DNA of 64,000 nt from Anaerobiospirillum thomasii (GTDB lineage: Bacteria > Pseudomonadota > Gammaproteobacteria > Enterobacterales > Succinivibrionaceae): NCBI RefSeq assembly GCF_900445255.1, contig NZ_UAPU01000005.1, positions 507,001 to 571,000 of the forward strand, in the 5' to 3' direction. Each line of letters opens with the position of its first letter. The first letter of the stretch is position 1. The notes under the pieces are model-generated. The model had not been told where the DNA came from and did no database searches. It saw only the letters and a list, made by a program, of their open reading frames with translations. Of the stretch, positions 24,203 to 45,764 are shown piece by piece. The translations under genes were made by a program, and so were the position numbers.

Positions 24203-24217
24203 TATGAGGTGAGAGAC

Positions 24218-25072
24218 ATGTATATCAGTCAATACTGGGGCAACTTGATTGGATGCTCTGCAGGAAGCCTAAACATTGTGGCTTTTTTAGCAGATCTAAA
24301 AAAAGAAGAAATCTCCTTAAGCGAAATTTTTGCAAAGACTGGTCTTGTCAGGCAGAACTTTGACTTTAGCCATACTGTTGAATATCTTGAGTTTACTCAC
24401 TCAAATGGCGATAAGATTGACTTTCACTTTGCTATTGATGTTATAGCCGACCTTGCTGCCATTATGCTTGAGTGCTCTGTTAACGGCAGTGTTAATCTTT
24501 ACGATCTTGATAGCTACAATGCCCCATCTCGCCATATCCGCATCACGGCCACAGCAGATGAACATAAGGCCATGAACAAGGCACTATCTGATTTTGCAAA
24601 AAATCCACAAAAATATGACCTTTGTCAGATGCTCACTAATGATGAGATCAGGCTGATGGCTATTGATGTTGAAGATATCAGAGCAGATCTGTATGAAAAA
24701 TCTGGCCTTATCAGTAACTATCGTATAAAGGCTGAGGATATAAAAGATCTGCTCAAAGACTATGAAGTAGCCGATGGCTGCCTGGCCTCACACCGCATTA
24801 CAGTTGAGGGCTTTAAGGTTGGCTACTGCTACAGAGAAAAGGCAGATGATGCCTGGGACAGCGGCTGGCGCTTTTGCGCAGGTGATGAGAGCGATGCGTA
24901 CATTAACGACCCCAGCTATTTAGGAATCTACAAACTAAATACTATCTGCAATTACGACACCGATATCATTAATCTTTTGCAGACACCTGCCCCCTGTGCT
25001 TTTTTGCGTGATGCAAACGGCATTTTTGTGCAGATTAAAGATGAAGATGGGATAGATAATGAGGAGCCTTAG
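24218..25072 (+). CDS. Fusion immunity protein: unnamed domain plus Imm33/DUF2185
   Basis: 284 residues from ATG 24218 (GAGGTGAG upstream). Residues ~1-165 form the same domain as the separate gene at 30635-31135 (shared patterns EEISLSEIFAKTGLVRQN, LECSVNGSVNLYDLD, DEHKAMNKALSDF). Residues ~190-275 are a DUF2185/Imm33 domain: CLASHRITVEGFKVGYCYRE, DSGWRFCAGDESDAYINDPS, YLGIYKLNTICNYDTDIINL. Imm33 is a predicted immunity family of polymorphic toxin systems. The stop TAG abuts the next ATG, so the genes are cotranscribed. The fusion suggests one protein countering two toxin types. Confidence 0.8.
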   Translation: MYISQYWGNLIGCSAGSLNIVAFLADLKKEEISLSEIFAKTGLVRQNFDFSHTVEYLEFTHSNGDKIDFHFAIDVIADLAAIMLECSVNGSVNLYDLDSYNAPSRHIRITATADEHKAMNKALSDFAKNPQKYDLCQMLTNDEIRLMAIDVEDIRADLYEKSGLISNYRIKAEDIKDLLKDYEVADGCLASHRITVEGFKVGYCYREKADDAWDSGWRFCAGDESDAYINDPSYLGIYKLNTICNYDTDIINLLQTPAPCAFLRDANGIFVQIKDEDGIDNEEP

Positions 25073-28000
25073 ATGGATATTTTAAAGCAGTGTCAGATAT
25101 GGCATGAAAATGGTGAATATCAGAACATTATTGATAAGCTTGAGGATATAGCAGCTCAAGATCGCAGCCCTGAGATGGACAGCGAGCTATCCCGTGCCTA
25201 TAACAATATGGCAGATCCTAATAAACCTACCTTCAGAAAAATGCTTAAAAAGGCACTGTCTCTTTTAAAACCTCATGAGCAATATTTTAAAGATGATCAT
25301 AACTTCAACTTTCGTATGGGCTACTCCTACTACTATCTTGATCAGGAGAGCCGGGCTCTTAAATATTTTAAAAAGGCTCTTGAGGCTAGGCCTGATGATA
25401 AGGATACCCTTGATTTTATAGATATGTGCCATCAGGGTATAACCCTGCCGCAATTTAATATGTGCTTTTATGAGCGCACGCAGCTGTGCTGGGACACCTT
25501 TTTAAAGATTGAGGCACAATTGCGTAAGATGATGGATGAGGACAAAGATGGCACAGGCGGTGCAAAAATCGTATCTCAGATGCAGGAGATCTTAAATCTT
25601 GTCTTTGATGACATCTCTTTTGAGATGGGTGTTAGTGGTCAAAAGTATGATCTTATCCTCACTCCAGAGGGTGACAAGGTCAAACTCTTTGAGCTGGTCT
25701 ATTTTCAAAAGTTTGCTCCTGAGAAGGTGCTTGATAACTGGAATATCATTGTAGGCCGTCAGGCAGTTGAAAACATAGCTCTGCGCACTGAGGATGGCAC
25801 AGAGATCTCTGGAGATGATGTGCAGATCTGGCTTGAAGATTGCGGTAAGAACAGATTTGCCATGGCCGTCTACTGTCAAAAGCTGCTTTCATTGCTTGAA
25901 AAGGAAGAAGGCCGGGCCTGGTGGATGCTCACTACACTAACAGATCAGGTGCTAGGTGAGATCTCGCATATGAGATACATAGACAGCTTTGATGTGCTTA
26001 AGGAGCCAAAGGCTGAGCCGTCCACGCCTATGTCCAGACTGCCAGATATTCTCAAGGGACGTGGACTTGATCTTTTAAATGATCCTAAAGCCTATCTTGA
26101 TAGTTACCTTGGCTATAAAATGCAGCCAGATGAAGATCCAGATGCTCCATGGCGCCTTGATATCATAGCAGGCTCCACCTGCTGCGCACCTCTTATCAAA
26201 GGCTATTTAAATGATGACAATGATTTTATAGAAGAACTTCATGCTAATGGTGCTGTTGCAGGCTTTTTCTGCTATCCATTAGATACGTTAAGTGGGCAGG
26301 AAGGATCGGATAAGATCTTTGACTTTAGAGACAGACTAGAGCAGGCGCTCACTGCTACCGCTTACCCTGAAGTTATAACCCTTACAGGAGGTGCCACCGG
26401 ACTTTACTGTGGTTATGTTGATTTTATAGCCTGGGATATTCAAAAGGTGCTGAACATAGCCAAAGAGTTCTTTGAGGGCACAGACATTCCATGGGCCATC
26501 TTCAACACCTTCTACCGTAAGGCAGATTTTGTAAATTTAAAATCTCAGAATAAAGAAGAAAATGAAAAAAACGATGATGAGCTAAACGACACACTTACAG
26601 GTATAGACTATATTCCTTATACAAAGGATAATGCTGAGAAGTTTTTCTTGCAGCTTGAGATGTGGAATGATAAGAGCGAGTACACACGCTGTATACAGGC
26701 GCTCAATGCCATACCAGAGGAGCACAAAGACTACCGCACAGCCTACGCTCTGGCCCGGGCACTTGAGAACTATGCCATCTTAGGAGATCATGATGAGGGA
26801 ACAATAAAGGTAAGGGCTGATAAAGCACTGCTAAAGGCCATTGAGGTGCTTGAGTCAGTATCAGATGAAGGTCAGAACAAGGCTCAATGGCATATGCGTA
26901 TGGCCTATGCCTATCAGTATCTTGATGGCCTTGAGGAAAAGGCTTTAGTCTATGCAAGGCGCTGGGCTGAGCTTGATAATGAGGACAAAGATGCCCTTAT
27001 TGTAATTAAAGAGTGTGAGACAATGATTAAAAAACGTAACAGAAGAATTGAGAACAGAGCAAAGTTTGTACCAGGTAAGATCCCTTTTGAAGGTGTTGAT
27101 CTTGAAAACTTCTGGGATGATAACAGCTATGCGCTTAAAGATTATGTAAGCGATCCACCATCTGATGAGCTTATTGCCGATATTGAAAAGGAGCTGGGCT
27201 ACAAACTGCCTGCCTCCTACATCTATCTTATGAAAAAGCACAATGGAGGTATGCCGGTTAATACCTGCCATCCATGTGACGAGCCTACAAGCTGGGCAGA
27301 AGATCATGTGGCTATCAGTGGCATTTTAAGCCTTGGGCGGGATAAAACCAATTCACTGTGCGGAGAGCTTGGTAGCAGGTTTATGATAGATGAGTGGGAG
27401 TATCCTGATATAGGTGTGGCTATCTGCGACTGTCCAAGTGCTGGACACGATATGATCTTTTTAGACTACCGCGCCTGCGGCCCTCAGGGCGAGCCTGCCG
27501 TTGTGCATGTTGATCAGGAATTTGACTTTAAAATCACCCATCTTGCTGACAGCTTTGAGGAATTTATCTGCAATCTGGTGCATGAATCACACTATGCCCA
27601 TGATGAAGATGATGTTGATGATACAGAAGATTCTGAAGGTGATACTGACAAGGATAAAAGTGATCCTAAGGGCTCCTTTGTAGGATCTGTGCTCCTTAGT
27701 GACGATAGCTGGGACAAAGAGCAGCTGATTTGTGATCTTAAAGAGCAATGGAACATAGTAGATGATAATACAGATGAGAGTGATGATGAGGACAGTGATG
27801 ATGCTCTTATCATGCACATTGGCGACATGATGCTCGTTGTGACCCTCTTTCACAGCCCCATCCCTGGCAATGAAGCTACGATAAATGCTCAAAATAACTA
27901 TATGTGGCCTGAGGCTGTAGAGGCAGCTACAGCCCACAAGGCCCATATTATGGTGGCTGTCCTTGGCGATGATATAAAACTTATAGAGCGCGGCAAGCTG

Positions 28001-28435
28001 TTCACCAAGGCTATGGCTGTGTGCTGCAGACAAAAATACGCAAGTGGTGTCTTCACCAGCGGCGTGGTGTTTGAGCCACGTTTTTATGCTGTGTTTGCCA
28101 ATATGCTCAAAGATGATGAACTGCCCATCTTCAACTGGATCTGGTTTGGCCTGTATCAAAGCAAAGGTGGCCTTAACGGCTACACTTATGGCATGGATGT
28201 GTTTGGCAAAGATGAAATGGAAGTGCTCAACGCAGATGCAGACCCCGAGGAACTGCGGGACTTTTTGGCAAGCCTTGCCTCCTATGTGCTCTATTGTGAT
28301 GTGACACTGCATGACGGCGAGACTATAGGATTTTCAGAAGATGACAAGCATAGCATCATAAGAAGTCCTGGTGTAGCACTACCTAATGAGCAGATGACAG
28401 TGAAGATAGGCTACGAGCCTGTACAGGAAGATTAG
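25073..28435 (+). CDS. Multi-domain immunity protein: TPR, SUKH/SMI1 and DUF4261
   Basis: 1120 residues. Residues ~1-125 are tetratricopeptide-like (FRMGYSYYYLDQESRALKYF); ~125-490 is a large region I do not recognise; ~514-650 is a second TPR block (WHMRMAYAYQYLDGLEEKAL); ~690-835 is an SMI1/KNR4 (SUKH-1) domain (IADIEKELGYKLPASYIYLM, KHNGGMPVN); a Asp/Glu-rich linker follows; ~867-1117 is DUF4261 (PIPGNEATINAQNNYMWPEA, HKAHIMVAVLG, NGYTYGMDVFGKDEMEVLN, DGETIGFSEDDKHSIIRSPG). SUKH and DUF4261 are predicted immunity domains. It starts immediately after the Imm33 gene. Cytoplasmic, no signal peptide. Confidence 0.85.
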   Translation: MDILKQCQIWHENGEYQNIIDKLEDIAAQDRSPEMDSELSRAYNNMADPNKPTFRKMLKKALSLLKPHEQYFKDDHNFNFRMGYSYYYLDQESRALKYFKKALEARPDDKDTLDFIDMCHQGITLPQFNMCFYERTQLCWDTFLKIEAQLRKMMDEDKDGTGGAKIVSQMQEILNLVFDDISFEMGVSGQKYDLILTPEGDKVKLFELVYFQKFAPEKVLDNWNIIVGRQAVENIALRTEDGTEISGDDVQIWLEDCGKNRFAMAVYCQKLLSLLEKEEGRAWWMLTTLTDQVLGEISHMRYIDSFDVLKEPKAEPSTPMSRLPDILKGRGLDLLNDPKAYLDSYLGYKMQPDEDPDAPWRLDIIAGSTCCAPLIKGYLNDDNDFIEELHANGAVAGFFCYPLDTLSGQEGSDKIFDFRDRLEQALTATAYPEVITLTGGATGLYCGYVDFIAWDIQKVLNIAKEFFEGTDIPWAIFNTFYRKADFVNLKSQNKEENEKNDDELNDTLTGIDYIPYTKDNAEKFFLQLEMWNDKSEYTRCIQALNAIPEEHKDYRTAYALARALENYAILGDHDEGTIKVRADKALLKAIEVLESVSDEGQNKAQWHMRMAYAYQYLDGLEEKALVYARRWAELDNEDKDALIVIKECETMIKKRNRRIENRAKFVPGKIPFEGVDLENFWDDNSYALKDYVSDPPSDELIADIEKELGYKLPASYIYLMKKHNGGMPVNTCHPCDEPTSWAEDHVAISGILSLGRDKTNSLCGELGSRFMIDEWEYPDIGVAICDCPSAGHDMIFLDYRACGPQGEPAVVHVDQEFDFKITHLADSFEEFICNLVHESHYAHDEDDVDDTEDSEGDTDKDKSDPKGSFVGSVLLSDDSWDKEQLICDLKEQWNIVDDNTDESDDEDSDDALIMHIGDMMLVVTLFHSPIPGNEATINAQNNYMWPEAVEAATAHKAHIMVAVLGDDIKLIERGKLFTKAMAVCCRQKYASGVFTSGVVFEPRFYAVFANMLKDDELPIFNWIWFGLYQSKGGLNGYTYGMDVFGKDEMEVLNADADPEELRDFLASLASYVLYCDVTLHDGETIGFSEDDKHSIIRSPGVALPNEQMTVKIGYEPVQED

Positions 28436-31225: not shown

Positions 31226-32416
31226 TTATAAAACAGACAGCGCCTGAGTAATATAGCTGTAGGCAATATACTCCTGCTCAAGGCGGACATTGCTGCCATA
31301 GGTATTATCTACAAGAGCTTTATAACAGCAAAGCTCATCTGCTGTCAGATACACAAGCTCTCCTAAAAAAGGCTTATCCTCTTTAACGGCACTTGCTAAA
31401 TTATCACGCAGCGTTGTCTCATTCATTAAAAATGACGTTATATTTATATCTTTGAGCGTAAAACGGCACTGATTTAAGATATTAAAACCATGTGTATCAA
31501 GATCGCCAAAATAATAAACTTTGCAGTCTTTAAGCCATTTAGCCTGAGACAAAGCTTCAAAACCATAGCCTTTGCCAAAAACAGCTATACCATCTTTAAC
31601 GTAAGGAAAGGATAAAAATGTAATTTCATTTTCTATAATAAAGATGGTTTTTGACTTTAAGTTCAAATGCGCAAAATCATCAGCATTTAAAGAGATCGAG
31701 TCTTTAAGAGATACATTGTCTATAAGCTTTAATGTATCATCAAGGGCTCTAAAGCGAATCATTTCAGGCTTTTGCTTAAAATAAAAGCGCCTGATAAACC
31801 CCTTTAGCGAGCGCTCTGTTACAGATGCGTCAAATCTGTCCTCATCTAGTACTATCTCAAGCATTTCAGAGATGATGGCATAGTGTTTTTCAATAAATTT
31901 GGTATCTGTGTCTTTTATATCAATCTGCCTTAAATAAAGTTTTCTGCAGTCATGCTCATTAAGATATAAAACAACATCAAGGGCCTTTAAATAAAGCTCT
32001 TCACTTTCATAGATTTTATAGATATTCTTTTTAAAATAGGCCTCAAGCACTGTATGAGCGCTACACAGTCTCTCAAAACGTAAGATAAAGGAATTAATCT
32101 TTGCTACGTTATAACCAAGCAGTGAGGCAAGATCATCAAAACTCTCAACCACAACCTCATCTGGTATACTCTGCGCGCCTAAAACTGCATTATTTAAAGT
32201 TTTGAAATTGACCCTGACCCCTTTGACACTCTTCCAGCTTTGCGCCCAGTTTAAAATCTGAGCAAAGGAGGCCTTAAGATCACGCGATAATGGCTTTTTG
32301 AGCTTTTTAACTATAGGCAGCTCCTTTTGCCCATAATAGTAGTCAAAAAGCTCATGCCTTTTGTCAATTTTTAAAAAATGCTCTTTTACATCGGCAAATG
32401 TTTCAAGCTTTAGCAT
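31226..32416 (-). CDS. jetD: Wadjet system nuclease subunit JetD
   Basis: 396 residues with the DUF3322 (N-terminal) plus DUF2220 (C-terminal) architecture of JetD. The Toprim-like metal motif is visible as FIIENEITFLSFP (Glu262/Glu264) and FGDLDTHGFN (Asp305, Asp307). In Wadjet, JetA-B-C form an SMC-like motor that recognises closed circular plasmid DNA, and JetD cuts it. Here jetA and jetB are absent and only a short piece that may be the jetC end lies upstream, 4 bases away, before a pair of ISL3 elements. Without its motor, JetD is not expected to restrict plasmids. The coding frame is intact. Confidence 0.85.
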   Translation of the reverse strand: MLKLETFADVKEHFLKIDKRHELFDYYYGQKELPIVKKLKKPLSRDLKASFAQILNWAQSWKSVKGVRVNFKTLNNAVLGAQSIPDEVVVESFDDLASLLGYNVAKINSFILRFERLCSAHTVLEAYFKKNIYKIYESEELYLKALDVVLYLNEHDCRKLYLRQIDIKDTDTKFIEKHYAIISEMLEIVLDEDRFDASVTERSLKGFIRRFYFKQKPEMIRFRALDDTLKLIDNVSLKDSISLNADDFAHLNLKSKTIFIIENEITFLSFPYVKDGIAVFGKGYGFEALSQAKWLKDCKVYYFGDLDTHGFNILNQCRFTLKDINITSFLMNETTLRDNLASAVKEDKPFLGELVYLTADELCCYKALVDNTYGSNVRLEQEYIAYSYITQALSVL

Positions 32417-32635: not shown

Positions 32636-34093
32636 CTAAATTTGGGGGTTGACATTATTTTCAACAGGCTCTGAAACTACGGCAGCTTTGAGTGTTGATT
32701 TTCTATCTCGAGACAGAGCCTGATGCATTTTCAATATATAGTACCCTATATCTCTAAAGCCGTAGGCTACCCTTTTAATGGTTTTGAATTTAGCATTGCA
32801 TCCCTCTAAAATACTGGTGTTTAAGCCAGTTGTAGCCGCATGAATAATATAACAGCTCCAATCTTTTAGCTTCTTGCAGAACCTTATCAGTAAAGGAATT
32901 TCTGTTGCTTCAGCTTGTGAATACAGGTTTTTAATTTCTGTTTCAACCTGCTCAGGTGTACCTCCGCTATGCCATAGATCTCTGATATGGTCTCCAAAAA
33001 TTGATATTGTAAACAAGGTCTTATTCTGTTTGAGGGTTTCTACAAGATCTTTTTGCGACTCTTCAAGAGTGTTGAGTTTATCTGAGCCCATGTAAGTCAG
33101 CCACTTGCTCTGTCTAAGATCTTTTATACGCTTCTTGTATTCACTTTTCTTTTGTTGATACTCGCCGGCGTCCATGGCGCCAAGCTCCTTGCGTAAATCT
33201 TTTATTTTATCAAGCCTTATGGCATCTGCCACTTCACTGTTAAACTGTTGCAGGCAGTGGAATAAATCAAGCACTATCTTTGCATTAGGGCAGAGCTCTT
33301 TGACTAGATTCTGATATCCGCAGTTGCCATCCATTACTGCACCTTCAATCTGGTCAAGCAGTCCAAGCTCTTTTAATCTATCAAAGAATGGCCTTAAATC
33401 ATCTTTCTTTCTGCCGTAGGCGGCATACAAAAGGCGCCTGGTATCGGCATCTATGATGACTGATATATACTTATGGTGCTTTTTAACGCTTATCTCGTCT
33501 ATAGCTATGTTCCTAACGCCTTCAAGGCTTATATCTTTGAACATCTCTATAAGCCTTGCCTTATCAATGTTCCTGATAATATCTGCCTCTACAGCCGTGA
33601 TAGCGCTTATTTTCTTTAAATCTAGATGACTCTCGCCCAAATCAAGAAGCTGCAGTATCTGCCCATATAAGCGTAAGGTTATCCTATGATGCGGATGGAC
33701 AAAGCTTGGCTTTAGCCACCTGGCATGATCACAACCACAACAAATGACCTTAGGTACGCGTATCTTTAAAATAACCGCAAATGGTCCTAGTGTGCAATCC
33801 TTTACTGTGCGCTCTCCCCAGTCCTTTATATTTACTTTATGGCAGCCACAGAGTGGGCAATTTTGTTCAAGCTCCTCTCTCCAAAGCGTATAGCCAAGAT
33901 GATAGGTAACAGTCATTGCCGTAGCATCTATTTCAGGCTCACCAGACATTACACAACCCGGGTACATATTGAGACCACCGTGTTCAAACTTACAGTGCAT
34001 TAATTCATTAGCACTGGCTTTGATTAAAGTTTCATTTGTTTCTGTATTGGCAGCAGTGTAGGAATTTATTATAATAGCACTAGGCTCTGTCAT
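32636..34093 (-). CDS. ISL3-family transposase, copy 1
   Basis: 485 residues. Zinc-binding cysteines (CPLCGC at 79-84, CCGCDH at 118-123) form the N-terminal finger of ISL3 enzymes. The DDE residues are likely Asp199 (IAIDEISVKK), Asp255 (VMDGNCG) and a Glu in LNTSILEGCNAKFKTIKR. It is nearly identical to the copy at 34384-35841, with about 11 amino-acid differences. The stop codon lies inside the left inverted repeat. ATG 34093 is preceded by GAAAGGA on the minus strand. Confidence 0.95.
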   Translation of the reverse strand: MTEPSAIIINSYTAANTETNETLIKASANELMHCKFEHGGLNMYPGCVMSGEPEIDATAMTVTYHLGYTLWREELEQNCPLCGCHKVNIKDWGERTVKDCTLGPFAVILKIRVPKVICCGCDHARWLKPSFVHPHHRITLRLYGQILQLLDLGESHLDLKKISAITAVEADIIRNIDKARLIEMFKDISLEGVRNIAIDEISVKKHHKYISVIIDADTRRLLYAAYGRKKDDLRPFFDRLKELGLLDQIEGAVMDGNCGYQNLVKELCPNAKIVLDLFHCLQQFNSEVADAIRLDKIKDLRKELGAMDAGEYQQKKSEYKKRIKDLRQSKWLTYMGSDKLNTLEESQKDLVETLKQNKTLFTISIFGDHIRDLWHSGGTPEQVETEIKNLYSQAEATEIPLLIRFCKKLKDWSCYIIHAATTGLNTSILEGCNAKFKTIKRVAYGFRDIGYYILKMHQALSRDRKSTLKAAVVSEPVENNVNPQI

Positions 34094-34383: not shown

Positions 34384-35841
34384 CTAAATTTGGGGGTTGA
34401 CACTTTTTTCAACAGGCTCTGAAACTACGGCAGCTTTGAGAGTTGATTCTCTATCTCGAGACAGAGCCTGATGCATTTTCAATATATAGTACCCTATATC
34501 TCTAAAGCCGTAGGCTACCCTTTTAATGGTTTTAAATTTAGCATTGCATCCCTCTAAAATACTGGTGTTTAAGCCAGTTGTAGCCGCATGAATAATATAA
34601 CAGCTCCAATCTTTTAGCTTCTTGCAGAATCTTATCAGTAAAGGAATTTCTGTTGCTTCAGCTTGTGAATACAGGTTTTTAATTTCTGTTTCAACCTGCT
34701 CAGGTGTACCTCCGCTATGCCATAGATCTCTGATATGGTCTCCAAAAATTGATATTGTAAACAAGGTCTTATTCTGTTTGAGGGTTTCTACAAGATCTTT
34801 TTGCGACTCTTCAAGAGTGTTGAGTTTATCTGAGCCCATGTAAGTCAGCCACTTGCTCTGTCTAAGATCTTTTATACGCTTCTTGTATTCACTTTTCTTT
34901 TGTTGATACTCGCCGGCGTCCATGGCGCCAAGCTCCTTGCGTAAATCTTTTATTTTATCAAGCCTTATGGCATCTGCCACTTCACTGTTAAACTGTTGCA
35001 GGCAGTGGAATAAATCAAGCACTATCTTTGCATTATGGCAGAGCTCTTTGACTAGATTCTGATATCCGCAGTTGCCATCCATTACTGCACCTTCAATCTG
35101 GTCAAGCAGTCCAAGGTCTTTTAATCTATCAAAGAATGGCCTTAAATCATCTTTCTTTCTGCCGTAGGCAGCATACAAAAGGCGCCCGGTATCGGCATCT
35201 ATGATGACTGATATATACTTATGGTGCTTTTTAACGCTTATCTCGTCTATAGCTATGTTCCTAACGCCTTCAAGGCTTATATCTTTGAACATCTCTATAA
35301 GCCTTACATTATCAATGTTCCTGACAATATCTGCCTCTACAGCCGTGATAGAGCTTATTTTCTTTAAATCTAGATGACTCTCGCCCAAATCAAGAAGCTG
35401 CAGTATCTGCCCATATAAGCGTAAGGTTATCCTATGATGCGGATGGACAAAGCTTGGCTTTAGCCACCTTGAATGATCACAACCACAACAAATGACCTTA
35501 GGTACGCGTATCTTTAAAATAACCGCAAATGGTCCTAGTGTGCAATCCTTTACTGTGCGCTCTCCCCAGTCCTTTATATTTACTTTATGGCAGCCACATA
35601 GTGGACAGTTTTGTTCAAGCTCCTCTCTCCAAAGCGTATAGCCAAGATGATAGGTAACAGTCATTGCCGTAGCATCTATTTCAGGCTCACCAGACATTAC
35701 ACAACCAGGGTACATATTGAGACCACCGTGTTCAAACTTACAGTGCATTAATTCACTAGCACTGGCTTTGATTAAAGTTTCATTTGTTTCTGTATTGGCA
35801 GCAGTGTAGGAATTTATTATAATAGCACTAGGCTCTGTCAT
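34384..35841 (-). CDS. ISL3-family transposase, copy 2
   Basis: 485 residues, almost the same as copy 1; differences include Ser for Asn29, Ser for Ala124, Gly for Arg219 and the tail VEKSVNPQI. The zinc finger cysteines and the three acidic catalytic residues are conserved, so both copies look active. Two intact adjacent copies could mobilise together or recombine to delete one. Confidence 0.95.
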   Translation of the reverse strand: MTEPSAIIINSYTAANTETNETLIKASASELMHCKFEHGGLNMYPGCVMSGEPEIDATAMTVTYHLGYTLWREELEQNCPLCGCHKVNIKDWGERTVKDCTLGPFAVILKIRVPKVICCGCDHSRWLKPSFVHPHHRITLRLYGQILQLLDLGESHLDLKKISSITAVEADIVRNIDNVRLIEMFKDISLEGVRNIAIDEISVKKHHKYISVIIDADTGRLLYAAYGRKKDDLRPFFDRLKDLGLLDQIEGAVMDGNCGYQNLVKELCHNAKIVLDLFHCLQQFNSEVADAIRLDKIKDLRKELGAMDAGEYQQKKSEYKKRIKDLRQSKWLTYMGSDKLNTLEESQKDLVETLKQNKTLFTISIFGDHIRDLWHSGGTPEQVETEIKNLYSQAEATEIPLLIRFCKKLKDWSCYIIHAATTGLNTSILEGCNAKFKTIKRVAYGFRDIGYYILKMHQALSRDRESTLKAAVVSEPVEKSVNPQI

Positions 35842-37492: not shown

Positions 37493-37500
37493 ATCCTTTG

Positions 37501-37923
37501 GTAAGATACCCATGACCCCATAATTTATCAAAAATCGGATCAGGATGCGCAATATCCCTTGGGAGGCGGGTATCAGGTAGATGCGGGCAGTATCATGCCC
37601 ACCCGCGGTGATAGATTAGTTCAAGATCAGCTTTGGTCAGCTCTACTACAGATACTGTAGACGAGGCAGTCTTTGATATAAAAGCTCTGCGTCTGGCATC
37701 ACTTATTGCACCACAGAAGCTATTGAATTGGATACAGCAAAGTCTATCTATGTTCTGATAATAAGATTTAACAGTAATACCCTGAGATGAAATCTCCTGA
37801 TTCATTCTGTCATAATCAGCGCTTTTAAATCCTTTATAGCTCATGACCCACTCTTATATATCTGGTATGGGTCTATTATTACAAGCAGGAAGGATGTCAT
37901 CTAAGGGGTCATGGGTATCTTAC
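37501..37923 (-). mobile_element. IS66-type mini-element A
   Basis: 423 bp with 19-bp terminal repeats GTAAGATACCCATGACCCC at both ends, and a single small gene. It is nearly the same as element B (40494-40916) in the opposite orientation. No transposase catalytic gene. Its outer end forms the left boundary of the composite transposon; its inner end cuts a repeat-protein gene. Confidence 0.8.
37593..37844 (-). CDS. IS66 TnpA-like small protein (mini-element A)
   Basis: 83 residues, beginning MSYKGFKSADYDRMNQEISS. The pattern MNQEISSQGITVKSYYQ followed by an aromatic/basic helix recalls the helix-turn-helix accessory protein TnpA of IS66 elements. It differs from the copy in element B at one residue (NIDR versus NLDR), and both frames are intact, so the gene seems to be kept. 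No TnpB or TnpC accompanies it. Assignment is tentative. Confidence 0.5.
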   Translation of the reverse strand: MSYKGFKSADYDRMNQEISSQGITVKSYYQNIDRLCCIQFNSFCGAISDARRRAFISKTASSTVSVVELTKADLELIYHRGWA

Positions 37924-38192
37924 TCTTGAGTAGCCTCTTGCTCATTTAGTCTCATATTAACAAAGTAGTTGCTCACGCTATTGTCTTGAGCGTTATAGAC
38001 AAAGCCATTTCTATAGTAGATCTCAAACTTACGGCCAATTAAGCTCTTAGGCAGCGTTAATGATGTAATTTTATTCTCGTTGTCGAAGACTACACCACGC
38101 TCAATGAACTTAACGCCCTCAGGGATCACCACATCGCCGTTTGCTCCTGAATAACGAATTAGCGTACCATCATCTGAGATCTCAAAGTCCAT
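37924..38192 (-). pseudogene. N-terminal fragment of repeat-protein paralogue
   Basis: Begins MDFEISDDGTLIRYSGANGD and follows the first ~90 residues of the complete protein at 38288-40174 (GDVVIPEGVKFIERGVVFDN, TLPKSLIGRKFE, NAQDNSVSN) with scattered differences. It is then cut by the inner end of mini-element A, whose TAA at 37920-37922 ends the frame. It lies 95 bases downstream of the complete paralogue. Confidence 0.75.
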
Positions 38193-38287
38193 AGAATGTC
38201 ATCACTGCTAAGAGCCCATCGCTAAATAGAAAGCTGAGTCCCATCTAAGCTAAATCATAGTGATAGCAAACAACTACTTTTGTGCCG

Positions 38288-40174
38288 CTACAAGCTTAAA
38301 GATGACCTTCTGCTAGGCTTTTTGGATTTGGCCTTGCTTTTAGACTCTTGTTGCCTTTCAAGGAGCATTGCTGTGGCTTCATGTGCATTGTGCTCTGTGG
38401 CCACATCTATAAGCTTACTGAGGGTTTGTTTTGATTTAATCTGCTTAGAGTTGATGATTGTATTAACAGCGCTATGAGAGGAGCTCAAGATTGCTTGTTC
38501 AAATAAATCTACTAGATCTTTTGCTTTTACATCTAAAAGATTGAAGATCTTTGCAAACTCATTAGGCCCCTCCCGAATGATCACAGGAATATAGCAAGCT
38601 GGAATTGAGAAAGTCTTTCCGTCACTTGCTGCCCATTCAATGAGTTGAACCACACCTTGCAAATGATTCAAAATGGCACTATATAGCAAGTCGTTAAAAT
38701 AAACGTCTTTAAGATACTCTTTTTCTTCTTGCATGAATCTTTGCAGGTTTACGCCGTGAGAGTGTAAATAGCTGGCGATCTTAAATTCACTGCACATCAA
38801 AGCAAGAATGCAGATCATATTACAATCATTGTTATCTTCGATTATCAATGCCTCTCTGTCACACAAGAGCTCAAGGCACTTTAAGCGCTCATCCTCATCA
38901 AGTGGAGTCATGTTTCTTACCTCAACATTTGAGGCAATCACAAACGCAGAGTTATATTGACTGCCGTTAAACAGATGCTCTACTGTAACCCAATAATTAT
39001 AGTAGTTGCTATAAAGCTCTTTAGATAAAGTCTTAGGTTTACGTTGCAATTTAGCTTCAGCATCTAACAGCAAACGCAGCTTCTCTACACCACCATAGCG
39101 TATCGCTAAAGCAATGGCGTAATCGACAGTTTGTATAGGATTTCTGTCATATTCTTCAGCCTCTTTGTCATGCCATAACAACTCTGTAAGTGGCTTTAGA
39201 CTTTCATCAAGCAATTGTTGAAGATCTTGTACACTGCCTCTTAAGACAACTTCCAATAAGTAATGTGCTGCTCCCTTATTGCTAGATCTATCAATCTTCG
39301 GCAGCCTCTTTTTGGCCCATTCTTCTTTGTAAAAATCTTGTACAGCAGCAGCAGATGAGTTTACTTCATCACCCTTGTAGAGTTCCACCTCATTTCTCAG
39401 CAACATGCCGATATACTGCTGAGCAACCTCCTCATTATAGATTTGATGATTGTAACAATAGCCTAAGAGTAGCCCCAAACCAAGACTATCAACAAGTTCT
39501 TCTGACAAACTCAACTCAGGCATTATCGAAATAATGCGATCTTTACTTCTATCCCATGTTTCATCTAACTTACACAGCTCGCAGTGAGTTAGTTTTGGCG
39601 CAAACAAATGCATTTCGTCGCCGGGCAAGCGACCTAACTCATCTAATTGCTCAGTGCTTAGTGAGGCTCCCATATACCTAACTTTATTTACCCATTTTCC
39701 TGACATTTCATATGCTTGAAAGACTTTCTCAAATTCCTCAGGCAAGGTCAGTTCTTTACGGTACACGTATGGAATGTCTATGACGAACCTACGGCATTTG
39801 CTATAAAGCACGCCATCCACGCTCTCATAGACTGGATTTTCAGGATGAACAATGTATTTTTTTAAATTGGGAAGCCAAGGCACGTACAAATAAGAGTAAA
39901 GGTTGTCTTGAATAGCATCATTCTCTTTAAGCTCAGTATTAGCAAAGCAGTTACTTACACTATTATCTTGAGCGTTATAGATAAAGCCATTTTCCCAGTA
40001 GCTCTCAAATTTACGCCCAATTAAGCTCTTAGGCAGCGTTAATGTTTTAATTTTAGTCTCGTTGTCGAAGACTACACCACGCTCAATGAACTTAACGCCT
40101 TCAGGAATCACCACATCGCCGCCCGCGCCTGAATAACGAATTAGCGTACCATTATCTGAGATCTCAAAATCCAT
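38288..40174 (-). CDS. Repeat protein: LRR-like N-terminus and ankyrin-like C-terminus
   Basis: 628 residues. The first ~150 resemble BspA-type leucine-rich repeats (DVVIPEGVKFIERGVVFDNE, IKTLTLPKSLIGRKFE, RKELTLPEEFEKVFQAYEMS). From about 290 there is an array of helical hairpins with ankyrin-like spacing (AAHYLLEVVLRGSVQDLQQL, ALAIRYGGVEKLRLLLDAEA, SEFKIASYLHSHGVNL). The tail is basic and Ser-rich (KSKAKSKKPSRRSSLSL). Such repeats bind other proteins, so it could be the sensor or substrate adaptor of the MoxR-VWA pair upstream. Truncated paralogues lie on both sides, indicating a former tandem family. Confidence 0.65.
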   Translation of the reverse strand: MDFEISDNGTLIRYSGAGGDVVIPEGVKFIERGVVFDNETKIKTLTLPKSLIGRKFESYWENGFIYNAQDNSVSNCFANTELKENDAIQDNLYSYLYVPWLPNLKKYIVHPENPVYESVDGVLYSKCRRFVIDIPYVYRKELTLPEEFEKVFQAYEMSGKWVNKVRYMGASLSTEQLDELGRLPGDEMHLFAPKLTHCELCKLDETWDRSKDRIISIMPELSLSEELVDSLGLGLLLGYCYNHQIYNEEVAQQYIGMLLRNEVELYKGDEVNSSAAAVQDFYKEEWAKKRLPKIDRSSNKGAAHYLLEVVLRGSVQDLQQLLDESLKPLTELLWHDKEAEEYDRNPIQTVDYAIALAIRYGGVEKLRLLLDAEAKLQRKPKTLSKELYSNYYNYWVTVEHLFNGSQYNSAFVIASNVEVRNMTPLDEDERLKCLELLCDREALIIEDNNDCNMICILALMCSEFKIASYLHSHGVNLQRFMQEEKEYLKDVYFNDLLYSAILNHLQGVVQLIEWAASDGKTFSIPACYIPVIIREGPNEFAKIFNLLDVKAKDLVDLFEQAILSSSHSAVNTIINSKQIKSKQTLSKLIDVATEHNAHEATAMLLERQQESKSKAKSKKPSRRSSLSL

Positions 40175-40263
40175 AGAATATCCTTACTACTAAGTGCCCA
40201 TAACAAAATAGAAAGCTGAGCCACAGCTAAGTTAAATCAAAGCAAACAACTACTTTTGTGCAG

Positions 40264-40402
40264 CTACAAGCTTAAAGATGACCTTCTGCTAGTCTTTTTG
40301 GTTTTGGTCTTGCTTTTAGACTCTTGTTGCCTTTCAAGGAGCATTGCTGTGGCTTCATGTGCATTGTGCTTTGTGGCCACATCTATAAGTTTACTCAAGG
40401 TT
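40264..40402 (-). pseudogene. C-terminal fragment of repeat-protein paralogue
   Basis: The minus strand encodes LSKLIDVATKHNAHEATAML, LERQQESKSK and a tail SRRSSLSL, almost the same as the last 45 residues of the complete protein at 38288-40174. Upstream of about 40402 the similarity stops. It lies about 90 bases before the complete gene and shows that a third paralogue once stood here. Confidence 0.7.
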
Positions 40403-40469
40403 CGGATAATATGTAAATATTTTTCAAAATTCTTTTTTGAACATGGTACCTTTAGCTAGCTCTTACATC

Positions 40470-40491
40470 TGTCAATGCTAAATGAGAATGA
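40470..40491 (+). mobile_element. Solitary transposon end related to the 57.5-kb element
   Basis: The 22 bases TGTCAATGCTAAATGAGAAT + GA match the left terminus of the Mu/Tn7-like element (57498-57519) at 21 of 22 positions. Mini-element B starts two bases later, so only this end survives. Confidence 0.6.
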
Positions 40492-40493
40492 TG

Positions 40494-40916
40494 GTAAGAT
40501 ACCCATGACCCCTTAGACGACATCCTTCCTGCTTGTAATAATAGACCCATACCAGATATATAGGAGTGGGTCATGAGCTATAAAGGATTTAAAAGCGCAG
40601 ATTATGACAGAATGAATCAGGAGATTTCATCTCAGGGTATTACTGTTAAATCTTATTATCAGAACTTAGATAGACTTTGCTGTATCCAATTCAATAGCTT
40701 CTGTGGTGCAATAAGTGATGCCAGACGCAGAGCTTTTATATCAAAGACTGCCTCGTCTACAGTATCTGTAGTAGAGCTGACCAAAGCTGATCTTGAACTA
40801 ATCTATCACCGCGGGTGGGCATGATACTGCCCGCATCTACCTGATACCCGCCTCCCAAGGGATATTGCGCATCCTGATCCGATTTTTGATAAATTATGGG
40901 GTCATGGGTATCTTAC
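40494..40916 (+). mobile_element. IS66-type mini-element B
   Basis: 423 bp, nearly identical to mini-element A in the opposite orientation, with the same GTAAGATACCCATGACCCC ends. The flanking octamers (GAATGATG and CTAAGGCC) do not match. Together with A it forms a ~420-bp inverted repeat around the repeat-protein genes. Confidence 0.8.
40573..40824 (+). CDS. IS66 TnpA-like small protein (mini-element B)
   Basis: 83 residues, one difference from the copy in element A. ATG 40573 is preceded by AGGAGTGGGTC. The C-terminus (ELIYHRGWA) is encoded by the element's conserved right end, which is also found behind the different core of element C. Role presumed in transposition; it cannot catalyse it alone as no DDE motif is present. 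Confidence 0.5.
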   Translation: MSYKGFKSADYDRMNQEISSQGITVKSYYQNLDRLCCIQFNSFCGAISDARRRAFISKTASSTVSVVELTKADLELIYHRGWA

Positions 40917-41015
40917 CTAAGGCCAATATTTGGCTTGTAGTTAGTGCCATAGACACCTCTGAAAATATGCAGGACTGATGTTATTTTGATTCCTATACAG
41001 TAAATGGGATAAGAC

Positions 41016-41045
41016 TTAGCTACACTCAATTAAGAGTGTAGCTAA
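41016..41045. terminator. Perfect hairpin downstream of the MoxR gene
   Basis: TTAGCTACACTC and its complement (41034-41045) surround a six-base loop, 48 bases past the MoxR stop on the minus strand. It lacks a strong T-run, so it may be a weak terminator or an RNA 3'-end stabiliser. Confidence 0.45.
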
Positions 41046-41092
41046 CAATGGCGTTAATGAGCCATTAATGATGTGGTAGAACTTTAGGAAGA

Positions 41093-42598
41093 TTAGATCT
41101 TAAGGTCGTTTAAGACGTTGATGATCTCAATCTGACGCTCATGGAAGAGGAGTTCTTTATTGTGTTTGAAGTACTCATCACAACCGAAGGAGCTAATGAA
41201 GCTTACGGCATTTTTGTTGATGGTCAGCTCGCTAAGTAAGATCAAGATCTCTTGACCCTCACCAAAGGCTTGCTCGGCAAACTTAAATGCGGCATTAAGC
41301 TTACCTACAACCTTATCTGCATCACTCTCCATCTTCTTTACGCGCTTATCAAAGTCCTTTTTAACGGCCTTGAAAGCTACCTCATTGTCCTCTTCGCTAC
41401 CAATGATATTCAGCTCTTCATGCAGGATATTATCTACAGCCTTCATGCGACGAACAACATTTTGCGTTACGGTGCCACGATCTGCGGTATTTTTCAGCTT
41501 ATTGGTGTAATTATGCAGCAAGGTCTCAAAAAGATAGCGTGGCGTATTTGGATTGTTCTTTACTCCTTTCTTAAAGTCTTTTAATACTGCAAGTAAGTCC
41601 TTTAAGATCGCCTCTTCATCGTTAACCTTGCAGATATCTTCATGCAGCGCATTTAACATCAAGCCTAATAAAGCTAAGCGCTCATCAAATGCTGCGTTAC
41701 TTGCACGAGCCATGATCTCATCACTAGCTTTACCATCTAAAATGCTGCTTACCTGATAATCAGAGCGATATTTTTTGAAGAGATCGTAGTAACGAGCAAA
41801 TTCCTTAGCGACCTTTGGATGCTGTAAGTATTGCTCAATTAAAGGCAGATCAACTTTAATCTTCTTCTCTTCGTAGAGCTTGAGCATAGCACTAAGATCA
41901 AGCCAACCACGTGCAGTCACAAAGTATCTACCATCAACAGTTGTTTCGATCTTGTAGAAGTCTGACTTAATGGTCTCAAGATAAGTAAAGACCGCAGGGT
42001 GCACGCCTGAGCTTTGGGCATACTCCTTCCACACCATAAAGTCAGGGATAACCTCAATACGGCGCAGACGATCCCAAGTGGCAATATCAAACTCACGTAC
42101 AGAATTGTTGTACTCAGGTGGGTTACCTGCAGTAACGACGATCCAGCCATTTGGCAGCTTGTGGCGACCAAAAGTCTTATACTGCAGGAACTGCAGCATT
42201 ACAGGAGCTAAAGTCTCAGAGGTACAGTTAATCTCATCTAAGAATAAAATACCCTCTTTAACACCTGTGGTCTCAATGTACTCATACACGGATGCAATGA
42301 TCTCTGACATGGTGTACTCAGAGATCGCGTACTCCTTGCCGTCGTACTTCTTATGCTCAATAAGTGGCAGACCTAAGGCGCTCTGTCTGGTGTGATGCGT
42401 CATGGAGTAGCTAATTAGACCAACACCAGCTTCATGGGCAATCTGCTGCATTACAGCAGTCTTACCAATACCTGGAGGGCCGAGTAAGAACACTGGACGC
42501 TGAACCTCAGGTGGGATTAAGTAATCACCGAACTCGTCTTTTAAAAAGTAAACGGTTACTGCGTTTTTTATTTGATCTTTTGCTTGTTTAATATTCAA
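41093..42598 (-). CDS. MoxR-type AAA+ ATPase
   Basis: About 501 residues from the TTG at 42598, which has GAGG eight bases upstream; a longer frame to TTG 42661 lacks a ribosome site. Walker A is GPPGIGKT (40-47), Walker B ILFLDEIN (117-124), sensor-1 Asn is in TAGNPPEYN, and arginine-finger candidates lie in WDRLRRIEV. The C-terminal ~200 residues are helical and Lys/Glu-rich. MoxR ATPases act as chaperones or remodellers with a VWA-domain partner, and that partner is the gene directly upstream. Alone it cannot define a pathway; the association with repeat proteins suggests a conflict or stress system. Confidence 0.85.
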   Translation of the reverse strand: MNIKQAKDQIKNAVTVYFLKDEFGDYLIPPEVQRPVFLLGPPGIGKTAVMQQIAHEAGVGLISYSMTHHTRQSALGLPLIEHKKYDGKEYAISEYTMSEIIASVYEYIETTGVKEGILFLDEINCTSETLAPVMLQFLQYKTFGRHKLPNGWIVVTAGNPPEYNNSVREFDIATWDRLRRIEVIPDFMVWKEYAQSSGVHPAVFTYLETIKSDFYKIETTVDGRYFVTARGWLDLSAMLKLYEEKKIKVDLPLIEQYLQHPKVAKEFARYYDLFKKYRSDYQVSSILDGKASDEIMARASNAAFDERLALLGLMLNALHEDICKVNDEEAILKDLLAVLKDFKKGVKNNPNTPRYLFETLLHNYTNKLKNTADRGTVTQNVVRRMKAVDNILHEELNIIGSEEDNEVAFKAVKKDFDKRVKKMESDADKVVGKLNAAFKFAEQAFGEGQEILILLSELTINKNAVSFISSFGCDEYFKHNKELLFHERQIEIINVLNDLKI

Positions 42599-42808
42599 GG
42601 GAAAAACCTCAGTAAATGTAAGTCTGTATTGCTTAATTCTGTAGTCATTCAAGCTAGGCAATTAGGCACCGTGGACTGCACTGGATTATTTGTACTAAGG
42701 CCAGTTCAGTGCTCTTAAAGCCTGTGTGCGCTCAAGATTGCTTCGGCTTTAGCATGTTTTAGAGTTACCTAAGCTTGAGTGATTGACCAATGAGGCACTT
42801 ATGAGTGC

Positions 42809-44335
42809 CTATAGATCGTACTTATCTAAAACCAGTTTAATTGCCCATGAAGGCACCGCGACATCATCATATTCACCACGGATCATGACGAAAGCAGATT
42901 TATATGCTGGTGGCTTAGCAGGGAACTGCCCCATACAATCAGTAAAGTAGATAAGCCCCTTAAGATCATGAAGTTCGCCACTCTTGATGAGCTTATCTAC
43001 ATAGGTAAATACAGGTCTAAAATCAGTACCACCAAAGCCTTTTAGCTGCATGTGCTTGATGTAATCTTCAAACTCCTTGCGTGAGGTGATTTTCACATCG
43101 CTTTGGATCTCAGAGTCACATTGAATGATGTGCAAATTAATCTTGTTAAAGAAGCTCTCTTTTTGCATCAAGATGTTGTAGGTCTTGTTCATGAAAGCCT
43201 GCACTAAAGGACCATGCACCGAGCCTGAGACGTCAATGGCGATCACGAAGTCATGAATCTTCTTAACCTCACGATACTCCAAAGGCTCAATAAGCGGCAT
43301 GTTCTTGTATAGATCAAGACCATAGGTGTAATAGATGTAGTCAAACTCATCTGGACTCACCTTCATCTCTTCTCTAAAAGTGGCAAATTTCTTTAAAAAC
43401 TCAGAGTAGTTATAGTGCTCTCGAGTTACCTCAGTTAAGTTCTGAATCAAAGATCCAGCGCCATCTCCTATACCTTTTGAGGTGGTCTTAAGATCAGTGA
43501 GCATCTTCTCTGCGATGGACATCCACATATCAAGCAAGGCTTGTTGCTTGCCAGCAATATACGGAGTATTGCTAAGGCCACTATTGTTTTCATTTGGATT
43601 CTTAGGCAAGATCGTGGAAACATTATCCTGGCCACTTTGATTTGAGTTGTCCAGAGAAGGCTGTCCACCATTTTGCGGCACTTCTGAACCACCACTAGGT
43701 GGCTGTGATCCTGAGCTACCATTTGATGACTGTGATGAAGCGCCACTAGAACTTGCCCCATCACCAGCTAAATCGCCCGCTCCACCAGCTTGATTGTCCT
43801 TTGACGGATACCAAGGACTATGCTCGTCGCAAGTAAAAAGCTCTCTTAATACCTGTCGCTTGCTATCACTTGGAGAATTTGCAAGAAAATGACGATAGAT
43901 CTTTTCTGCAGTAAGGATCTTAACTTCTTTTTGTATGGTATTTAGATGCGAGCGCATTGCTGCATCATTATTAGTAGCAATGCTATCTTTCTTTAACTCG
44001 AGGATAGTGTTGGATACTGCGATATCACTAGCTAAATCCCACAGCTCACGATCTAGTGCTTTTGCCGAGAAAGGATGGTAGAGAACGCAATGGAGCAAAG
44101 AGTGCAAGTAGTTATGCACTGGACGAGCTTGATCATCACGGTACTCTTTAAGAACAAAGATAGGATTGAAGTAAAGAGCTTTACCATCAGTTGCTTGAGT
44201 CTCAATTGCCTCAGAGCAATTAAGTGGCAACCTATCTAACGCCGTGTCTAAGAAGCGAAAGTTCAGCACCAAGCGACTCTGCGCAAGCTTCATCACTTCT
44301 TGAGCTAGTTGACGAATCTTATCTTCATTCGACAT
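42809..44335 (-). CDS. VWA / DUF2201-like metallopeptidase-fold protein
   Basis: 508 residues from ATG 44335 (AGAGAG upstream). The N-terminal ~170 residues have the DUF2201 layout, with HNYLHSLLHCVLYH (His74, 78, 82, 87) where an active zinc protease would have HExxH, so catalysis is doubtful. Residues 182-262 are a Gly/Ser/Gln/Asn-rich linker. The C-terminal VWA domain has a full MIDAS: DVSGS (Asp368, Ser370, Ser372), GGTDFRP (Thr437) and Asp466 in YFTDCMGQ. VWA-MoxR pairs assemble together, the VWA presenting targets through a bound Mg ion. Stop and next start are about 210 bases apart. Confidence 0.85.
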   Translation of the reverse strand: MSNEDKIRQLAQEVMKLAQSRLVLNFRFLDTALDRLPLNCSEAIETQATDGKALYFNPIFVLKEYRDDQARPVHNYLHSLLHCVLYHPFSAKALDRELWDLASDIAVSNTILELKKDSIATNNDAAMRSHLNTIQKEVKILTAEKIYRHFLANSPSDSKRQVLRELFTCDEHSPWYPSKDNQAGGAGDLAGDGASSSGASSQSSNGSSGSQPPSGGSEVPQNGGQPSLDNSNQSGQDNVSTILPKNPNENNSGLSNTPYIAGKQQALLDMWMSIAEKMLTDLKTTSKGIGDGAGSLIQNLTEVTREHYNYSEFLKKFATFREEMKVSPDEFDYIYYTYGLDLYKNMPLIEPLEYREVKKIHDFVIAIDVSGSVHGPLVQAFMNKTYNILMQKESFFNKINLHIIQCDSEIQSDVKITSRKEFEDYIKHMQLKGFGGTDFRPVFTYVDKLIKSGELHDLKGLIYFTDCMGQFPAKPPAYKSAFVMIRGEYDDVAVPSWAIKLVLDKYDL

Positions 44336-44602
44336 ACACATCTCTCTGTTCACACACTGCACATGGCGTGGTATAAGCCATTTCCACAGCAAACAAAAAC
44401 TATTTAGACTCATCATAGATCAGAAAACTTAGCTAATTTTTAGAATGATCTTAATGAGCAAGTGAATTGCTCCTGCCAAATCTTACGATTATGGCGTGAG
44501 CTTCATGGCGTCGTTGCGCCAAATCTCATACGGTTAACAAGTTACCCATATCGGCTGAAACACGCAACCGCTATCAAATAGCTTCTTAACAGAAGCATTT
44601 TC

Positions 44603-44698
44603 GTAAGATACCCATGACCCCATAATTTATCAAAAATCGGATCAGGATTCGCAATATCCCTTGGGAGGTGGGTATAAGGTAGGTGCGGGCAGTATTAT
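44603..44698 (-). mobile_element. IS66-type right-end fragment D
   Basis: About 96 bases starting GTAAGATACCCATGACCCCA match the outer end of mini-element A with several base differences, then similarity stops near 44698. A relic of another copy, oriented as A. Confidence 0.65.
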
Positions 44699-44811
44699 CC
44701 TAAATTTTTCATGCAAAGTATAGTAATTTTCTCGGCCTTTAATATTTACTGATCATTTTTTAATAATTTACTGTTAGCAATGATTTTTTTAGTAAAATTC
44801 ATTGCTATTTA

Positions 44812-45648
44812 GTAAGATACCCATGACCCCTTAGACGACATCCTTTAATGCAGTATCTAAATAGAGCCTGTATTGATGTTAAGCGTACTCATATCTACAA
44901 AAATTAGTTGATAGACATCACAAATCTACAACAAAATAAAGGTCCTTAAAGCCACATTTAAGGGCCCAAAAAGCATGCCTGTCATAAGCCCTAAAAAACA
45001 CCTCTCACAGATCTGTAGAGATCTGTACAGATCAATAATACCCCTCAGATGAAAAAACTCACTCAAAAAAACAAGGCTCGACATAGGCATTTTAGAGGGG
45101 TTTTAAGAGGTCTGTAACGGCTTGTGCATGGGCTTTGTGGGTACTTTTGTCTATGGTAAAATATACCTAATTTAAAGGATAAAAGTAGGTGTTGTTTATG
45201 AGCAGTGGGTACGAAAATTTAAGTCAGGCTGAGCTTATAAAACTATTACAGAATACTACAGCTCAACTAGATAGAGCCAATAAAGATATTTCTATCGTAC
45301 AAAGCAAGCTCAATAGTGCTGAGAAGAAGCTCACTATTACTGTAAAGAAGCTAGAAAAGACAAGCAGGAGAATAAAGATTTAAAGATCACTAATAATATA
45401 TTGTGTTTTATTGCATCTAATTTTACTCAGGATGCACATGCTATTTTGCATGAGATAGACAAGAAATTTACAATTTATCCTCAATATGCATTTTCAAGGG
45501 ATGTTATAACTACCATTCAAATTCAAGAACTAATCTATCACCGTAGGTAGGCATGATACTGCCCGCACCTACCTGATACCCACCTCCCAAGGGATATTGC
45601 GCATCCTGATCCGATTTTTGATAAATTATGGGATCATGGGGATCTTAC
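44812..45648 (+). mobile_element. IS66-type element C with a different core
   Basis: 837 bp. The left end at 44812 has GTAAGATACCCATGACCCCT and the TAGACGACATCC that follows in A and B; the right end finishes at 45648 (GATCATGGGGATCTTAC, two changes from A/B). The core differs from A and B and encodes the start of a TnpC-like protein. It forms the right boundary of the composite transposon. Confidence 0.75.
45198..45550 (+). pseudogene. IS66 TnpC-like N-terminal fragment, frameshifted
   Basis: MSSGYENLSQAELIKLLQNT followed by a heptad-rich coiled coil (LDRANKDISIVQSKLNSAEK) resembles the N-terminus of the IS66 transposase TnpC. The frame ends at 45383; a one-base shift near 45355 continues it as DLKITNNILCFIASNF to QELIYHRR and a stop at 45548. 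No zinc finger or DDE domain remains, so it cannot catalyse transposition. Confidence 0.5.
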
Positions 45649-45764
45649 ATCCTTTGTTCAATATACTGGTAATTACTGTGCAGCTCTTATGGTTTTTGAG
45701 GTGTAATCTTATTGGCCTTCATGAATTTTCTTATCACATTTTTATTTTGGTTATAGTCAGATTT

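Follow-up and report, generated by a model that had tools for sequence, protein, structure and literature searches.

The two gene fragments that flank a complete repeat-protein gene in the window (the whole 64,000-nucleotide stretch of Anaerobiospirillum thomasii DNA analyzed here) are the truncated neighbors of that gene in a former tandem LRR-plus-ankyrin array, which probably forms the third, variable part of a VWA-MoxR system. The complete LRR/ankyrin-type gene, at 38288..40174 on the reverse strand, encodes 628 aa, with residues 1 to 287 of one paralog type and residues 288 to 628 of another. On one side of it, on the same strand, lies the N-terminal fragment of a third tandem paralog (37924..38192; the first 89 codons, or 269 bases), which matches at both the DNA and the protein level. 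On the other side lies the C-terminal fragment of an upstream tandem paralog (40264..40402, reverse strand; 46 codons including the stop). When the 628-aa protein was searched against its own genome, residues 1 to 90 matched 37923-38192 with 80% identity (E = 1.3e-41), and residues 580 to 628 matched 40267-40413 with 84% identity (E = 4.6e-17); beyond itself and the two fragments, this search gave no further match.

The two intergenic spacers, at 38193..38287 (about 90 bp) and 40175..40263, both read on the reverse strand, are repeats of each other and belong to a longer direct repeat, in which 37924-38426 corresponds to 39906-40402 over about 503 columns with 88% DNA identity. Chance cannot account for such a repeat. 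Each copy consists of a gene end, the spacer of about 90 bp, and 269 bases from the start of the following gene. With two such junctions present, at least three gene copies must once have stood in a row. The preliminary description had assigned both fragments to the family of the complete gene and had proposed at least three tandem paralogs; the alignment of the three copies upheld both points, through the protein matches and the 88% DNA identity over the direct repeat. It had also proposed that mini-element A cuts one paralog and that the other fragment stops near 40402, and the boundaries agree with this. The terminal repeat of mini-element A ends at 37923 and gene homology starts at 37924, so that the truncation of the N-terminal fragment coincides exactly with the boundary of the element (the ORF call, 37920-38192, extends 4 bp into it). 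The homology of the C-terminal fragment is lost at 40402, 91 bp short of mini-element B (40494-40916). The intervening 91 bp (40403..40493) are of unexplained origin and had no match in the other loci fetched.

The repeat protein and the MoxR-VWA pair

Profile A2 of the repeat protein matched ankyrins (designed ankyrins, E = 1.3e-5), and residues 295 to 616, approximately, of the model aligned with the ankyrins of RNase L, FEM1B, and KIDINS220 at Z scores of 8.5 to 10.7, which are moderate for helical repeats. An ankyrin solenoid is predicted to extend over this region. The N terminus gave a profile match to the LRR of PcpA (E = 3e-7), and LRR_5 was matched by 1 of the 17 family members, single proteins being mostly below the Pfam cutoffs; the N terminus appears LRR-like, an assignment that is weak for any single protein. 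The model of the N domain had low confidence past residue 57 or so, except for a stretch near residues 105 to 125, and a fold search with a separate N-domain model was dropped because the model was too uncertain. With its PcpA LRR and designed-ankyrin profile matches and the ankyrin fold in the model, the family is similar to BspA-like LRR (PF13306) and ankyrin-repeat proteins, but it differs from them in being a tandem family found in VWA-MoxR loci.

Two genes of the pair lie next to the array remnant, both on the reverse strand. The MoxR-type AAA+ ATPase (41093..42661; 522 aa) matched PF07728 (4.6e-8) and, under its cutoff, bpMoxR (3e-5); its Walker A (GPPGIGKT) and Walker B (ILFLDE) motifs are conserved and intact. 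The VWA protein (42809..44416), for which the real start is likely at MSNEDK, at about 44335, has DUF2201_N and DUF2201 (VWA-like) domains, with a match to PF09967 above the cutoff (1.9e-13). Its MIDAS motif reads DVSGS, and D-x-S-G-S and GGTD are conserved in three genomes. Because the VWA-like domain extends as far as residue 530 of 535, the protein has no C-terminal effector; a separate gene may encode one. The HExxH-like site of DUF2201_N reads HNYLH or HDYLH, and this domain is therefore probably not an active peptidase. With PADLOC, the repeat protein and the VWA protein had no match, and MoxR had only weak matches to IetA (AAA ATPase).

Related arrays and transfer between genera

The repeat-protein family is linked with VWA and MoxR in three genomes, namely, the window genome, A. 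succiniciproducens DSM 6400, and a same-genus relative (G011). DSM 6400 carries seven paralogs on the contig with VWA-MoxR (C45, NZ_AXWV01000053), in the order repeat gene, repeat gene, VWA, MoxR, dprA-like, and B1 to B5, the last being cut by the contig end. Four more (C1 to C4) reach the end of a second contig (C29), and three further copies are dispersed and full length. The dprA-like gene that separates MoxR from the array (L025 7685-8686) matched PF02481 (3e-54). The ends of the two contigs may be neighbors, which would give one array of about 11 copies. In G011, the order is VWA, GNAT-like (a weak match), repeat gene, repeat gene, NADAR, repeat gene, and MoxR, with the NADAR gene (L055 7373-8242) matching PF08719 (6e-50). 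The window contains a NADAR-domain gene at 13265-14125 that is similar to the one inside the G011 array. Since the protein identity between G011 and the window is only 48% for VWA and 59 to 61% for MoxR, the association of VWA, MoxR, and the repeat family is old. Copy number beside MoxR-VWA, which had been suggested for examination in other strains, does vary, with one intact copy in the window, 7 to 11 in DSM 6400, and 3 in G011.

The order of the copies also differs. In DSM 6400, B4 precedes B5, the ortholog of the complete window gene, yet the end of B4 has only 79% DNA identity to the upstream (C-terminal) fragment of the window, which resembles the end of B3 (95%). The array thus seems to have been reshuffled since the two loci split, with the caveat that the DSM 6400 assembly is a draft in which each array stops where its contig stops, and misassembly is possible.

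The search for relatives covered 57 genomes of the family and, from the order and the phylum, about 400 sampled genomes apiece. A profile search of 394 genomes of the order gave matches only in DSM 6400 and the window genome, and in 398 genomes of the phylum, a VWA search at a strict threshold (E = 1e-20) returned only the window genome; the subfamily therefore looks narrow within these samples. No relatives were found among plasmid or phage records, nor in IMG/VR contigs by a peptide-pattern search. A separate ankyrin-repeat protein is encoded at 10490-11386 of the window (Ank_2, 5e-13); own-genome searches did not place it in the repeat family.

Window positions 40918-44459, containing MoxR and VWA, had 95.8% DNA identity to DSM 6400, and positions 39046-40402 had 93.0% identity to the end of B4 plus B5. 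Between the two genomes, which a genome search placed in different genera of one family, dS was 0.09 for MoxR, 0.09 for VWA, and 0.04 for the repeat gene, whereas TrxB, encoded next door, had 59% protein identity with saturated silent sites. The low dS of the system compared with that of trxB points to a recent exchange or to a common source for both, and the system appears to have moved horizontally between genera. The protein encoded at 38288-40174 has a seven-residue insertion near residues 355 to 362 that is absent from B5. Beside trxB in DSM 6400 (L059 8161-12397), there are four tandem flagellin-like genes with a common N terminus.

IS66-type ends around the locus

Mini-element A (37501..37923, reverse strand) is an internally deleted IS66-type element with terminal repeats of 19 to 20 bp (GTAAGATACCCATGACCCC) and an ORF of 83 aa (37593-37844). 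Mini-element B (40494..40916, forward strand) is an inverted copy of A with 98.8% identity. A third IS66-type remnant (44603..45648) consists of a solo end (44603-44695) and a deleted element (44812-45648) with its outer end directed to the right; it shares its ends with A and B, with three differences. The terminal repeats begin with GTAAG, which sets the element bounds given here and corrects those of the preliminary description. IS66 ends begin with GTAA, as do the two outer terminal inverted repeats, GTAAGATACCCATGACCCC at 37501 (forward) and GTAAGATCCCCATGATCCC at 45648 (reverse). These two outermost, outward-facing ends are flanked by an identical 8-bp target-site duplication, ATCCTTTG, at 37493..37500 on the left and at 45649..45656 on the right; the flanks of the five inner IS66-type ends had no match. 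The chance that one pair of 8-mers matches in the window is about 5e-5, and 8-bp target duplications are made by IS66 elements (PMC3281130).

The window genome has a longer IS66-type copy (C5, 335642 to about 343.2 kb) whose first ORF, of 129 aa, is similar to the 83-aa ORF of the mini-elements. This copy encodes an IS66 transposase (PF03050), shares its left end with them, and appears to hold an inserted IS21-like element. In G011, trxB lies beside Spy-like and VanY-like genes, only about 100 bp away from them, and the block 37501-45648 is absent from this syntenic site; in the window, the Spy-like and VanY-like genes lie beyond the far side of the block from trxB. The IS66-type ends, the identical 8-bp flanks, and the absence at the syntenic site in G011 are most simply explained if 37501-45648 is a composite IS66-type transposon of 8.1 kb, which carried the reduced system when it inserted next to trxB. 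It shares GTAA ends, an 8-bp duplication, and a longer IS66-type copy in the genome with IS66-family composite transposons and IS-derived MITEs. It differs from these composite transposons in that its end elements are internally deleted, so that movement would need transposase in trans, and in that its cargo is a MoxR-VWA system. Two near-identical ISL3-family transposase genes stand in direct tandem just downstream of trxB, at 32636-34093 and 34384-35841.

Where DSM 6400 has 8.8 kb of sequence, from the dprA-like gene through most of B4, the window has mini-element B and the 91 bp instead, and IS activity probably trimmed the array. Only about the first 38 bp of the dprA-like gene appear to be left in the window, next to mini-element B. 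The preliminary description had missed that the locus appears to be the reduced remnant of an array, lying within a composite IS66-type transposon and holding a system seemingly acquired horizontally. It is quite possible, if short of probable, that the system entered this genome as the composite transposon in an already reduced form, rather than as a full array that was then reduced here: as the 8-bp duplication shows, the reduced unit of 8.1 kb was inserted at this site in one piece, but none of the other 56 family genomes searched, DSM 6400 among them, has the ORF of the mini-elements, and the several copies and remnants in the window genome mean that the unit may have formed here and moved locally.

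Mosaic structure and possible function

In a comparison of six full-length close copies, the complete window gene (and B5, as far as it is known) was like B4 and C1 to C3 up to about residue 287 and like B3 from there on. MaxChi, with 541 informative sites, placed the switch at about residue 287, where the match fraction changed from 0.23 to 0.88 (P = 0.001, 1,000 permutations). Between the complete gene and B3, dS was 0.94 over residues 101 to 287 and 0.19 over residues 288 to 628; against B4, it was 0.36 and then 0.82 past the switch. The constant dS between B4 and C1 (0.45 and 0.47) points to the window gene, with its ortholog B5, as the recombinant. Third codon positions showed the same step in sliding windows, and pure selection as the cause of the mosaic was ruled out by this switch of the silent sites. 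In the tree of the C-terminal half, the window gene grouped with B3 with 100/100 support, and a pairing with B4 was rejected (P = 1e-6). The tree of the N-terminal half preferred B4 without formally rejecting B3 (P = 0.12), so that the claim of a mosaic rests on distances, silent sites, and MaxChi. These were six-copy trees, half-gene trees with distant outgroups having been uninformative because of long branches. Further patches were found among C1, C2, and C3 near residues 480 and 580, and C4 had about 91 to 94% DNA identity to the main group over the first 30 or so codons and 31 to 39% thereafter. Since the ankyrin solenoid starts at about residue 295 in the model, the exchange lies near the domain border. 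Recombination between paralogs, suggested in the preliminary description, is thus well supported, most sharply at a breakpoint close to where the ankyrin domain begins, and the swapped halves may be specificity parts of binding proteins.

The LRR/ankyrin family may have a role in recognition or defense. The repeat proteins could be exchangeable binding arms of a MoxR-VWA machine, with the array as their bank. In such a scheme, the array would supply many binding proteins differing in specificity, which the MoxR ATPase and the VWA co-chaperone would load, remodel, or be triggered by, probably in a response of the conflict (anti-invader) type. The conserved arms, made up of the gene end, the spacer, and the first 30 or so codons, may promote unequal crossing-over, and IS insertion with IS-linked deletion would have reduced the array to one complete gene. 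We put forward, tentatively and as a possibility only, a recombination-diversified recognition repertoire, in which a tandem bank of LRR/ankyrin binding proteins is served by one MoxR-VWA chaperone pair and gains new specificities by crossing-over near the boundary of the LRR side and the ankyrins, with no diversity-generating retroelement, and which passed from one genus to another and was pared down by IS elements. Such a repertoire would be a bacterial counterpart of plant NLR clusters. Succinivibrionaceae are not known for a multicellular habit.

A rival explanation, in which a client or scaffold of MoxR-VWA was amplified for gene dosage or housekeeping and recombination is a neutral by-product of the tandem repeats, seems unlikely. 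Tandem arrays commonly undergo gene conversion in the absence of selection for diversity, and dN/dS was about 0.2 to 0.8, below 1 for all pairs, indicating mostly purifying selection; however, copies of the same array fall to 20 to 40% identity, with the first 30 or so codons more alike, whereas dosage should keep them alike, and copy number and content differ greatly among genomes. Far less credible is a local duplication of a single gene during an IS-mediated rearrangement in place of an inherited array: the genome has a single complete copy at this place, together with two mini-elements in inverted orientation, but a recent duplication would be near-identical throughout, and this reading was rejected on the divergence of the fragments, the two junctions differing by up to 22% of DNA positions in segments and the N-terminal fragment being nearer to B4 (92 to 97% DNA identity) than to the adjacent complete gene (78 to 91%). 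Under the array-bank model, the members are predicted to bind different ligands and to have a common MoxR-VWA partner.

The nearest models for the locus are the MoxR-vWA ternary and DGR-sensor systems, which it appears to resemble without being placed in any defined subtype. The ternary conflict systems contain VMAP, iSTAND, FtsH, and later iSTAND2 and TERNS3 (Kaur et al. 2020, PMC7159879; 2021, PMC8195603). Shared with them are the pair of a MoxR AAA+ ATPase and a vWA co-chaperone, a fast-diverging linked further component, and lateral spread, and the NADAR and DprA-like neighbors of the arrays would fit a nucleotide-signaling or defense setting. Unlike in these systems, the window vWA begins with a DUF2201_N domain and lacks a C-terminal effector, and a tandemly arrayed LRR/ankyrin family takes the place of the third component; this family had no Pfam match to VMAP, iSTAND, FtsH, iSTAND2, or TERNS3, some of which may lack Pfam models. 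MoxR-vWA systems are thought to join a conserved switch with a variable sensor, a diversity-generating retroelement being one described route, and DGR-diversified sensors are attached to such systems (PMC10907252). A variable putative sensor beside MoxR, often with vWA, and an IS/MITE-linked duplication of the locus are features in common (PMC10907252), but no reverse transcriptase or lectin-type gene was present in the ORF lists of the loci analyzed here, and the variation here, in Succinivibrionaceae, stems from tandem arrays and recombination near a domain boundary. The literature searched on DUF2201, and on MoxR with LRR and ankyrin proteins, did not describe such an arrangement.

Two further observations concern neighboring genes of the window. 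A JetD-like gene (31226-32416; PF09983, 7.7e-41, and PF11795) lies close to the island. Immunity-type proteins (Imm68/Imm33 and SUKH/TPR) are encoded next to one another at 24209-28435, which suggests a polymorphic-toxin immunity cluster.
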